Part shown: positions 52,171 to 56,278 of the stretch, piece by piece
Layout of the letters: every line of letters begins with the position of its first letter
How positions within the stretch are numbered: position 1 is the stretch's first letter
Assembly: GCA_027308685.1 (NCBI GenBank)
Contig: DAIDEE010000039.1
Location: 1 to 64,000 of the forward strand
Length of the DNA: 64,000 bases
Origin: Acidocella sp.
GTDB taxonomy: Bacteria; Pseudomonadota; Alphaproteobacteria; Acetobacterales; Acetobacteraceae
Direction of reading: 5' to 3'
The notes under the pieces: generated by a model
Seen by the model: the letters and a program-made list of their open reading frames with translations, nothing else
Database searches by the model: none
Told to the model about the DNA's origin: nothing
Program-made: the position numbers and the translations under genes

Positions 52171-53382
52171 TTATGCGGCCCTGCGGATGCTTAACTCGTT
52201 CCAAATGGTTGCAAGGGCTGCTACCAGATGCGCGATATCGGCATCGGTATGCAGCGGCGAAGGCGTGATGCGCAGCCGTTCGGTACCGCGTGGCACGGTG
52301 GGATAATTGATCGGCTGGACATAAATACCAAACCTGTCGAGCAACTGATCCGAGATGCTCTTGCACTGCACCGGGTCGCCCACGATGACGGGCACGATAT
52401 GGCTGGGGTTGGGCAGATGCGGCACGCCCACGTCGTCAAGCGCGGCGCGCAGCACCGCCACCCGGTTGTGCATTCGGTCACGCTCGGCGCTGCTGGCTTT
52501 CAGATGCCGGATTGAAGCCAGTGCCCCTGCGGCCACCATCGGCGGCAGGGCGGTGGTGAAGATGAACCCTGATGCGTAGCTGCGGATAAAATCGCACAAC
52601 CCATGGGAGCCGGTAATGTACCCTCCGATGACACCAAAGCCTTTCGCCAAGGTGCCTTCAATGACGGTTATCCGGTGGCTGAGGTGATCACGGTCTGATA
52701 ATCCGCCCCCGCGCGGACCATACAGCCCTACGGCATGCACTTCATCCAAATAAGTCATGGCACCAAATTCATCGGCCAGGTCACATATGCCTTCAATGGG
52801 TGCGACATCGCCATCCATTGAATAGACTGATTCGAAGGCGATCAGCTTTGGCCGACCAGGCTCAATGGCGGCAAGCTTGGCGCGCAGGTCATCAAGATTG
52901 TTATGCTCCCAAACCTGGCACTCGGCGCGGCTATGACGGATGCCCTCGATCATTGAGGCGTGGTTGCCGGAATCCGAGAGTACCACACAGCCTTTCATGC
53001 GCGCCGCGAGCGTGCAGAGGGTCGCCCAGTTCGACATATAGCCGGAGTTAAACAGCAGTGCGGAGTCCTTATGGTGTAAATCGGCCAGTTCGCGCTCCAG
53101 CAACAAATGAAAATGATTAGTGCCGGCAATATTGCGGGTGCCACCAGCTCCAGCGCCGCATTTATCGAGCGCCTCATGCATGGCTTTCAGGACCGCCGGA
53201 TGCTGGCCCATGCCGAGATAATCGTTCGAGCACCACACGGTGACATCACGCTTACCGCGGGCGGCGTGTTGGGTGGCAACGGGGAATGACCCCGCCACCC
53301 GTTCGAGGTCGGCGAACACGCGGTAATTGCCTTCGCGGTGCAATGTATCCAGTTGGCTACGAAAAAATTCTTCGTAATGCAT
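52171..53382 (-). CDS. hemA: 5-aminolevulinate synthase HemA
   Basis: 403 residues. It condenses glycine and succinyl-CoA with PLP. Markers are [57 protein letters not shown] and the PLP lysine in [15 protein letters not shown]. It is the Shemin-pathway enzyme of alphaproteobacteria, often found at the end of the puhE/acsF series as here. It is 42 bp after the puhE-cobW gene. Confidence 0.95.
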
Positions 53383-53424: not shown

Positions 53425-55209
53425 TCAAGCGGCAAGTTTCACGTCACAGGCTAGAAACGCGGCAGCAAGTTCGGCTTCGTGGATAGTCTTACCGATGGCA
53501 ACAACGCGCGCTCGCTCATCGCTGCTGGCGGCAAACGCGGTCATGCTGGCGCGGCCGCCGGCCACATCGAAATGTAGCCAGCCGTTGCCGGATTTTGCTA
53601 AGCCTTTAACGCGGGCGATGGCACCAAATTTACCGCCAACAATTCCATCGAGCACGGCTTGCAGAGCTTCCGCACTGCAGTGGGCCTGAAGTTCGGTGTT
53701 CCAGGATGTGAAGCCCAGTTCAGATGCTGCGTGGTTATGGTGATGCTCGTGGTGTTCATGTGTATGGTGATTGCGGTGCGCATCATCATGGCTGCAATGT
53801 TCATCGCACTCATGGTCTGCGTAATCATGTGCTGCGTTGTCACGGACCAGTGCCATGCGGGGCTGCGGTAATGGTTCAGGGTCAATGTGGCCGTAGCGTG
53901 CGGTAACAATGGTGACTGCCGGGTTCAAGCGTCGCAACGTTTCAGCCACGGCCAACCGCTCAGCGGTTGAGACAACATCGGCCTTATTGATGACCAGCGT
54001 TGAAGCCAGCTTGGCTTGCGCCGCGAAATGCGCCGGTAGTTTGGCATAGTCAGCCAGGAATGCCCCAGCATCGATGATGGTAATGATTTTTAATTTACGT
54101 ACAAAAGGCAGCAAGGCGGGGCGTTGCATCACGCCGATCAGCGAGGCGATATCGGCCACACCGGAAGGTTCGATGAGCACGCGATCTGGAGCAAAGCGGG
54201 TAACGGTATCTTCCAACTGACGGGATAGATCATCGCGCAGCGAGCAGCATATGCAGCCATTAGGCAATTCCACTACACTGGCACCTTGGTTGTTCAGCAG
54301 CGAGCCATCGACACCGACCGTAGCGAAGTCATTGACAAGAACGACGGTTTTGCCAGGTAGAGTGCCTAGAGCGTCGAGCCGCCGTGTCATGAAGGTGGTT
54401 TTACCAGCGCCTAGAAAACCCGCGACAATTTCAACATCAAATGCTTTCGAGGGTTTACGTGACGCCAGGCCCCATTTCCAAAGTTTTCCCGCAGGTAGGG
54501 GTATCACCAGAAACCAGTGTTCCAGAATCGCTAGTGCCATCATGGTGCCAAGGAACGTATCACCTGAGCGTGCGAACGCACTGGTGGCGCCGGCGGCGCG
54601 TTCAAACAGCATGGTCGCAATTACCATCGAGACCGTGATCGAGACGGGGAAAAACAAATTCATCGGTTTGGATTTGAGGAAGCTCTTCAGGAAGGTAAGA
54701 TGTTCCGGCAGAAATTCCTCATTGAGGTTGCGCACGCCAAAAAACACATTAAGCTTGGCGCTCTGATGCATCCACCAAAGTACCATGAAGGTCCACATGC
54801 CGATTTGGTTCGGCTCATGGCGGGTAAGGATAAAAATAGCACAGGCTGAGATGATGATAGCAAATTCATGATACAGGCTGGTTTCAATGGCATGGCCAAA
54901 ATGTTTCCAACCGCTGCAGCCTTCCGGGCAAGGTTCATTACGTGTGCCCGTTACATAGCCCATGTAGAAGCTGATCTCCTGCCAGCCCCAGGCGAAAAGG
55001 CCGAAAAAGAATGCTGCATAGGCGCTTAGCAGGCTGGTCTGGGTGGCAGTGACTTTCAAGCCATATAGGCATGACAAGGAAACGACGGTGGCGCCGATCA
55101 TGCTGTATTTGAAAGTTTTACGTGGTAGATTATCGAGGAATATAATGGCGCCGGTGCTGAACCACCACACAAACAAGGCGAATATGGCAGGGTAAACATA
55201 GGCTTGCAT
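53425..55209 (-). CDS. puhE: PuhE fused to a COG0523/CobW-type metal-chaperone GTPase
   Basis: 594 residues in one frame. Residues ~1-245 are PuhE (photosynthetic complex assembly protein, DUF3623): about six helices with FAWGWQEISFYMGYVTGTRN, CPEGCSGWKHFGHAIETSLY and WWMHQSAKLNVFFGVRNLNE. Residues ~258-594 are a G3E GTPase: Walker A GFLGAGKTT (264-272), the metal site C319-I-C321-C322, IEPSGVADI, NKAD (408-411), a His/Asp/Glu-rich loop (461-493) and a CobW C-terminal domain from ~498. PuhE is normally about 250-280 residues and alone. The two parts meet over a short linker (GLASRKPSKAF). The gene lies between acsF (13 bp) and hemA. COG0523 proteins load Zn or Co into targets; a role in zinc supply to pigment assembly is inference. 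Confidence 0.92.
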   Translation of the reverse strand: MQAYVYPAIFALFVWWFSTGAIIFLDNLPRKTFKYSMIGATVVSLSCLYGLKVTATQTSLLSAYAAFFFGLFAWGWQEISFYMGYVTGTRNEPCPEGCSGWKHFGHAIETSLYHEFAIIISACAIFILTRHEPNQIGMWTFMVLWWMHQSAKLNVFFGVRNLNEEFLPEHLTFLKSFLKSKPMNLFFPVSITVSMVIATMLFERAAGATSAFARSGDTFLGTMMALAILEHWFLVIPLPAGKLWKWGLASRKPSKAFDVEIVAGFLGAGKTTFMTRRLDALGTLPGKTVVLVNDFATVGVDGSLLNNQGASVVELPNGCICCSLRDDLSRQLEDTVTRFAPDRVLIEPSGVADIASLIGVMQRPALLPFVRKLKIITIIDAGAFLADYAKLPAHFAAQAKLASTLVINKADVVSTAERLAVAETLRRLNPAVTIVTARYGHIDPEPLPQPRMALVRDNAAHDYADHECDEHCSHDDAHRNHHTHEHHEHHHNHAASELGFTSWNTELQAHCSAEALQAVLDGIVGGKFGAIARVKGLAKSGNGWLHFDVAGGRASMTAFAASSDERARVVAIGKTIHEAELAAAFLACDVKLAA

Positions 55210-55222
55210 GGTGTTGCTATCC

Positions 55223-56278
55223 TTACCAGCTTGGGGCTAAGCGCACGTCTTGCGGTAGCGCATGACGCTTGGGTGCCAGTAGGTATAACCGGATAAAGGC
55301 AGTAGCCGCTTTGGCTTGTCGGCCCAGCTTGACCAGTTTTGCCGCCATGCCGGTTTTATCCTTATCAGCCGCCATCTTCACACTAATTTCCCGCAACGTT
55401 TCCAGCCCTGCATGGAAGGCGGGGTTATCGAGATCAAGGCTGACTGGGAAGGTTTGTTTGGCGATTTCGGAGGTGATGCGGAACACCTGGAAATCATACT
55501 CGGTAGGGTCTAGTCCGAGAGCCGCGTGGAACACGGGCCGTGCGTGATCGCGCACATACATGGTGGCAAAAACTGCCAGCAGGAAAAACCGGATCCACAG
55601 CTTGTTAACGCCGGTCAACATCCACGGATTAGCCCGCATCAATAAGGCAAACGCTTCACCGTGGCGAAACTCATCGTTGCACCATTCGCGGAACCATTTG
55701 AAGATGGGGTGAATGCGCAGTTCCGGGTGGCGCTCCAACTGGCGGTAGATGCTGATGTAACGCGCATAGCCAATTTTTTCTGAGAGATAAGTTGCATAGA
55801 AAATAAACTTCGGTTGGAAATACTGGTATTTTTTTGCCTTGGTCAAAAATCCAAGGTCAACCTTCATATTAAAATCTTTAAGGGTATCATTGATGAAACC
55901 GGCATGGCGGGCTTCATCGCGACTCATATATGCGAATAGAGCCTTCAGGTCGGGGTTTTTTACCCGCTTACGAATTTCAGCGTATAGCACACAACCTGAA
56001 AACTCAGCGGTGACGGAACTGACCAGAAAATCTAATAATTCCGCGCGCAAATCAGGCGGCAGTAAGGTGAGGTCCACATCGAATTCTTCATTACGGATAA
56101 AATGGCCCTTGTTTGGGTCGGCCTTAAATTCCGCTAACAGGGCGTCCCACTTTTCACGCACTGAGGAAACATCGATTGCCTCGAGCGCTTCAAAGTTGGT
56201 CGTGTAAAAGCGGGGGCTTAGTACCGTACTGGTTTGGGCGAGCTTGGTTTGTTCATTCGGGGCGACAATCTCATTCAT
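55223..56278 (-). CDS. acsF: Mg-protoporphyrin IX monomethyl ester oxidative cyclase AcsF
   Basis: 351 residues. The di-iron carboxylates are in [17 protein letters not shown], the [13 protein letters not shown] motif and the [14 protein letters not shown] motif. It makes the fifth ring of bacteriochlorophyll with O2. Its presence means pigment can be made aerobically; the anaerobic enzyme BchE is not seen here. It starts 4 bp after orf104. Confidence 0.95.

Follow-up and report, generated by a model that had tools for sequence, protein, structure and literature searches.

A conserved fusion of PuhE with a COG0523 GTPase in Acidocella and relatives, with a possible role in metal handling at the site of bacteriochlorophyll synthesis

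Why should PuhE, a membrane protein of purple bacteria, be made in one chain with a GTPase of a family of metal chaperones? The question is raised by a gene in a 64,000-nucleotide stretch of Acidocella sp. DNA (GenBank assembly GCA_027308685.1, contig DAIDEE010000039.1, positions 1 to 64,000; hereafter the window), which encodes PuhE followed by a COG0523 (G3E) GTPase on the minus strand, the plus-strand reading of the same interval being full of stops. The fusion is real and conserved, its domain architecture is apparently undescribed, and we tentatively favour, at somewhat short of an even chance, a gene product that would act as a membrane-tethered GTPase handling metal for a client at the site of pigment synthesis, with AcsF as the leading candidate. 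The parts of the gene are as follows (counts refer to the fused proteins described below).

53425..55209, minus strand: puhE-COG0523 fusion gene, 594 amino acids, a single frame with its ATG at 55209 and its stop ending at 53425
54451..55209, minus strand: PuhE (DUF3623, PF12291) domain, membrane protein, residues 1-253 (Pfam E 4.4e-105, NCBIfam TIGR03055, hydropathy)
53905..54435, minus strand: G3E GTPase domain (PF02492, cobW), residues 259-435 (Pfam E 1.4e-40)
54397..54420, minus strand: Walker A, GFLGAGKT (264-271), present in 56/56 complete fused proteins
54244..54255, minus strand: CxCC metal motif (319-322), kept in 51/56 complete fused proteins and missing also in L342 and L344
53731..53829, minus strand: His-rich loop (461-493), with fewer than 4 His in 8/56 complete fused proteins
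53446..53712, minus strand: CobW_C domain (PF07683), residues 500-588 (Pfam E 5.4e-8)
54892..54930, minus strand: C-x3-C-x4-H-x2-H (C94, C98, H103, H106), candidate metal ligands, invariant in 59/59 fused rows
54766..54768, minus strand: H148, the best single discriminator of fused PuhE in an unbiased column scan (other PuhE mostly have Arg)

The PuhE match is full-length, with 309.7 bits on TIGR03055 (cut-off 164), and a linker of about 5 residues leads into the GTPase, in which ExxG and NKAD are present besides the motifs listed. The protein stays below the cut-offs of both the CobW equivalog TIGR02475 (96.7 vs 332.1 bits) and the ZigA zinc chaperone NF038288 (88.5 vs 600 bits). The original prediction, of one uninterrupted frame for full-length PuhE and a complete COG0523 GTPase with Walker A, CxCC (319-322), NKAD and a His-rich loop (461-493), placed between acsF and hemA, is borne out by Pfam and NCBIfam, with acsF upstream and hemA downstream on the same strand. 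Its remark that no description of such a protein was known agrees with our own search, as no paper describing a PuhE-COG0523 fusion was found in the open-licence PubMed Central literature; the main text of Haas 2009 (PMC2770081) contains neither "photosyn" nor "fus". No place in a plasmid collection covered 80% of the fusion, the PuhE profile had 0 matches among solved structures at E up to 1, and none of its distant Pfam matches was convincing.

An assembly artefact was ruled out, since the 59 distinct fused PuhE rows (sequences) in our tree stem from many assemblies, some of them on multi-megabase contigs (G079, G373, G430). Two of the rows are truncated at a contig end (L055, L060), and in a third, L061, the frame stops early. 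Some of the records may be mis-binned: L047; L034 together with L060, both labelled Kouleothrix; L059 together with L069, both labelled Thiodictyon; and L020, L037, L039 and L071. L061 is from the complete genome of Jiella pelagia, where the fused frame stops inside the GTPase, possibly as a pseudogene or through a sequence error. The Gemmatimonadaceae bin G1166 holds two differing PuhE, one fused and one not (L287, L297), likely owing to a mis-binned contig, and the bin of L047 likewise holds a second, different PuhE, L297. The fused proteins are under purifying selection, with strong constraint on both the PuhE and the GTPase parts: between the window gene and three relatives, the ratio of non-synonymous to synonymous substitution rates (dN/dS) was 0.017-0.034 for PuhE, 0.053-0.083 for the GTPase and 0.078-0.102 for CobW_C. 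Walker A, ExxG and NKxD are intact in all 56 complete fused proteins.

PuhE as such was present in 8/61 near relatives of the window genome, 101/395 genomes of its order, 29/385 of its class (27 above the cut-off), 31/398 of its phylum and 25/297 of the order of Roseospira. In the window's order, 92 of the 101 PuhE loci were opened and yielded 22 full fusions, one of them cut by a contig end, and 23 PuhE-CobW_C proteins; the remaining 9 loci are not full fusions, because their frames of at most 356 amino acids are too short. Fusions made up 3 of 27 in the class sample and 3 of the 30 opened in the phylum sample. Of the named genomes among the matches listed, metagenome genomes of Acidocella come nearest, with 88-89% identity over the fusion; named genomes that carry it are, for instance, those of Acidiphilium rubrum, Lichenicoccus roseus, Rhodovibrio sodomensis, Fulvimarina pelagi, Aurantimonas, Jiella, Lichenibacterium minor, Pararhizobium mangrovi, three Roseospira and Caenispirillum salinarum. 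The fused group takes in, among others, the genera Roseospira, Rhodovibrio, Fulvimarina, Aurantimonas, Jiella, Acidocella, Acidiphilium and Lichenicoccus.

Besides the full fusion and 94 rows of PuhE alone, two further architectures were found.

PuhE-CobW_C (23 rows; L169, L170, L172, L174, L176-L179, L187-L196, L198-L201, L203): 341-358 amino acids, a CobW_C-like domain directly after PuhE, no GTPase
PuhE-BchJ (three Rhodospirillales proteins; L340:1453-2961, L341:823-2280, L356:841-2280): TIGR02019 match, E 1e-52 to 1e-61

Against a profile of CobW_C from the fused proteins, the CobW_C-like domain of the first group gives E 1e-14 to 1e-29, and the proteobacterial stand-alone COG0523 proteins examined score lower on that profile (best 31.5 bits); the general Pfam CobW_C model was above its cut-off in 1 of 4 tested PuhE-CobW_C proteins. 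These proteins would have derived through loss of the GTPase rather than stand nearer to the ancestor; the tree leaves the polarity unsettled. The full fusion needs 2 changes in a quick PuhE tree and 5 in a careful one for which the trait columns had been masked, and of these 5 the starred branches force only 1; the backbone around the fused rows is unresolved in the careful tree. The PuhE-BchJ fusion probably arose by the joining of neighbours, since bchJ directly follows puhE in several related genomes. In two Pelagibius metagenome-assembled genomes (L064:10001-11128 and L066) PuhE lacks the GTPase and has a His-rich tail, which may be what is left of a former fusion. We also looked for a split arrangement, in which a close orthologue of the GTPase would lie elsewhere in the genome, and rejected it: in each of 14 non-fused genomes (7 unfused, 7 PuhE-CobW_C) the best match has 31-39% identity.

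What the joined GTPase might do is suggested by its place in the membrane and by its neighbours. In a crude family-mean hydropathy profile of PuhE, six cores stand out clearly and a seventh weakly, and K/R-rich segments (22-40, 79-113, 151-190, 236-256) alternate with K/R-poor ones, which suggests an N-out, C-in orientation with the C-terminus, the C94-H106 segment and the E164-H170 segment on one side of the membrane. As the C-terminus of PuhE is thus predicted to be cytoplasmic, the GTPase would be held on the cytoplasmic face, where bacteriochlorophyll is made and inserted. Its minus-strand neighbourhood reads puhA, puhB, a 151-residue frame in the place of puhC, acsF, the fusion, hemA and hemC.

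55223..56278, minus strand: acsF, oxygen-dependent cyclase, immediately upstream of the fusion and adjacent in 48/59 fused rows
52171..53382, minus strand: hemA, 5-aminolevulinate synthase (HemA), immediately downstream (profile match)

According to passages of PMC9164220, COG0523 proteins act as chaperones for Zn, Co and Fe, and part of Young 2021 (PMC7895991) has CobW taking Co while YeiR and YjiA prefer Zn. The His-rich loop may gather a transition metal, more plausibly Fe or Zn than Mg, which the CxCC site may bind in the GTP state and pass to a partner upon hydrolysis. The leading candidate for this partner is AcsF, a di-iron cyclase whose gene adjoins the fusion. Given that CobW_C is retained in some relatives that have no GTPase, it is probably a docking module. 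We consider metal handling at the membrane likely, with AcsF as the best candidate for its client; that AcsF itself is the client is possible, though on the less probable side.

The fate of the CxCC motif bears on this choice. Among the 56 complete fused proteins it is lost in three Roseospira, L051 and L052, to which our sample of Rhodospirillales adds L342 and L344. In that sample CxCC is present in the only fused protein with an adjacent acsF, that of Caenispirillum, and missing from all five that have no acsF nearby (three Roseospira, L342 and L344); no acsF was found in the three whole Roseospira genomes, where BchE is above its cut-off, whereas acsF was present in the other 6 of the 9 fused genomes searched. 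Of 48 fused rows with adjacent acsF, 45 keep the motif, 2 have lost it and 1 is unreadable. All but the three Roseospira keep it among the 11 rows without adjacent acsF; in L026, L038 and L040 acsF lies elsewhere in the genome, and the record of L039 is cut. At equal PuhE identity (0.6-0.7), proteins without CxCC show a more diverged GTPase (identity 0.46 vs 0.59) and a hardly more diverged CobW_C (0.42 vs 0.45). The pattern speaks for a role in metal handling that is tied to AcsF or to aerobic life, but may rest on one event. Several observations weigh against such a role. AcsF has no general need of the GTPase, because it stands beside a PuhE without one in 23/23 PuhE-CobW_C and most unfused rows; L051 and L052 lack CxCC yet have acsF adjacent, and the genome of L051 has both AcsF and BchE; L032, L034, L047 and L060 retain CxCC with no acsF adjoining the fusion (within the neighbourhood looked at). 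CxCC loss in the five Rhodospirillales may be a single event, with L342 and L344 checked for acsF over about 19.5 kb.

Could the client be PuhE itself? All PuhE share E78, E115, E230 and H231, and nearly always H114, whereas C94, C98, H103, H106 and H148 are complete in 59/59 fused rows (as in L342 and L344), in 0/23 PuhE-CobW_C rows and in 8/94 unfused rows. In the PuhE-CobW_C group, positions 103 and 148 are Arg in 23/23 rows, and C98 and H106 are absent throughout; of the 94 rows of unfused PuhE, 22 have C98, 17 have H103, 18 have H106 and 11 have H148. The unbiased column scan ranked H148 first, followed by W146, Y82, H103, F173, H106 and C98, and Cys/His account for 4/10 group-specific against 8/71 invariant positions (P 0.011, kinship ignored). 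These sites fall in segments placed by the crude hydropathy on the GTPase side, and part of the set is lost in two of three Pelagibius-type rows without the GTPase (L065, L066), all of which would fit a GTPase that loads metal onto its own PuhE. Against this, the set persists without a GTPase in L012, L064, L114, L182, L214, L215, L218 and L225 and in six Rhodospirillales rows (L334, L343, L346, L347, L348, L350), and it is intact where CxCC is lost; as the unfused rows with the whole set mostly group with or near the fused rows in the PuhE tree, the set can outlive or precede the GTPase. Its association with the fusion may simply be inherited, the fused rows being close kin, and we consider loading in cis unlikely. 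The GTPase might instead sense metal or GTP and tune the effect of PuhE on bacteriochlorophyll production, handing no metal to any client. The nucleotide motifs survive where CxCC is lost, which suggests a role beyond metal. Most fused proteins, however, keep CxCC and the His-rich loop, and we regard such regulation as rather unlikely.

The ancestry of the GTPase invites another explanation, namely that a member of a corrinoid-serving COG0523 branch assists in loading or transferring a chlorin intermediate, not a bare metal. When 84 GTPase domains were placed in a quick tree, the 34 from fused proteins fell into a single group (SH-aLRT, an approximate likelihood-ratio support, 94), and the nearest stand-alone relatives among the matches listed were six Firmicutes COG0523 proteins, all in the order mtaB-mtaC-cobW-ramA; several of the next nearest adjoin genes for MtgC-like corrinoid proteins. 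In L072-L076 and L078 the COG0523 gene regularly lies between mtaC and ramA of Firmicutes methanol:corrinoid operons. MtaB is a zinc enzyme, however, so the neighbourhood fits zinc supply too, and these relatives come from a pattern-limited search with 80 loci listed. The fusion of BchJ to other PuhE adds to the case, as parts of PMC7242693 and PMC4432870 discuss BchJ as a pigment-pathway chaperone or carrier, but on balance we find the handling of a tetrapyrrole improbable. More improbable still is that the fusion supplies zinc, or controls Mg/Zn exchange, for zinc bacteriochlorophyll, as the original prediction had it. In its favour, the fusion is present in Acidiphilium rubrum, which, as stated in a portion of PMC7242693, makes only the zinc pigment. 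According to a passage of the review PMC12654162, zinc bacteriochlorophyll has so far been observed in acidophiles alone, and the distribution of the fusion speaks against the link. The residue at PufL L168, read as that before YNPxH, was readable in 24 of 27 genomes; Glu at this position we take as a marker of the zinc pigment. Among the 18 fused genomes with readable PufL, 7 have Glu (the window's genome, G006, L017, L019, A. rubrum, Acidiphilium sp. PA and L027) and 11 the ordinary His, and the non-fused genomes show 4 His, 1 Met and 1 Glu, the Met being that of L257, a Pelagibius metagenome-assembled genome. G004, of the window's genus, has Glu and an intact unfused puhE between acsF and hemA, and no fused copy was found elsewhere in this metagenome-assembled genome, which is 83% complete. 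The fusion therefore does not occur only and always with Glu L168; it is not sufficient for a zinc-type reaction centre nor, judging from this one genome, necessary, and a role specific to the zinc pigment was rejected, this distribution being what the original prediction had itself named as a refutation. The broader idea of a metal module at the membrane site where pigment and reaction centre are assembled stays plausible, without the specific zinc link.

Metal handling by a membrane-tethered GTPase thus remains our preferred reading. It could be extended to a whole family of metallochaperones that are anchored in the membrane and devoted to bacteriochlorophyll synthesis. These would charge AcsF, and perhaps a second metal site on PuhE, and would lose their metal motif after the loss of acsF, while PuhE would act in other lineages as a platform for CobW_C alone or for BchJ; we hold this extension to be doubtful. 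If true, it would amount to a metal-insertion factor for the bacteriochlorophyll pathway not described in the open-licence literature searched, bearing on metal delivery to the enzymes of this pathway and on the Mg-for-Zn exchange in Acidiphilium, the mechanism of which is called unknown in part of PMC7242693. The function of PuhE is poorly known, and its conserved tie to a GTPase offers a single knockout target for both questions, together with named residues for testing (CxCC, C98/H103/H106/H148) and natural variants without single modules.

Among known systems, the COG0523/G3E GTPases YjiA, CobW, ZigA and Nha3 share Walker A, CxCC, ExxG, NKxD, CobW_C and a His-rich loop with the fusion, which matches YjiA (1nij/4ixm) over residues 259-445 in phmmer (E 2.5e-16); here, in contrast, the GTPase is fused behind a membrane protein and scores far below the CobW and ZigA cut-offs. 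The PuhE of purple bacteria has the same full-length domain, above the TIGR03055 cut-off, and the gene order is as in unfused relatives, while the window protein adds the GTPase and the extra Cys/His set. The COG0523 proteins of Firmicutes methanol:corrinoid operons, the closest stand-alone GTPases in our tree among the matches listed, differ in standing alone, adjoining mtaB, mtaC and ramA. In IcmF, a fusion of a MeaB GTPase with a mutase, a G3E GTPase likewise shares one chain with its partner or client; IcmF is a soluble corrinoid enzyme, whereas no enzyme activity is known for PuhE, a membrane protein. IcmF is named in an excerpt of PMC9164220.
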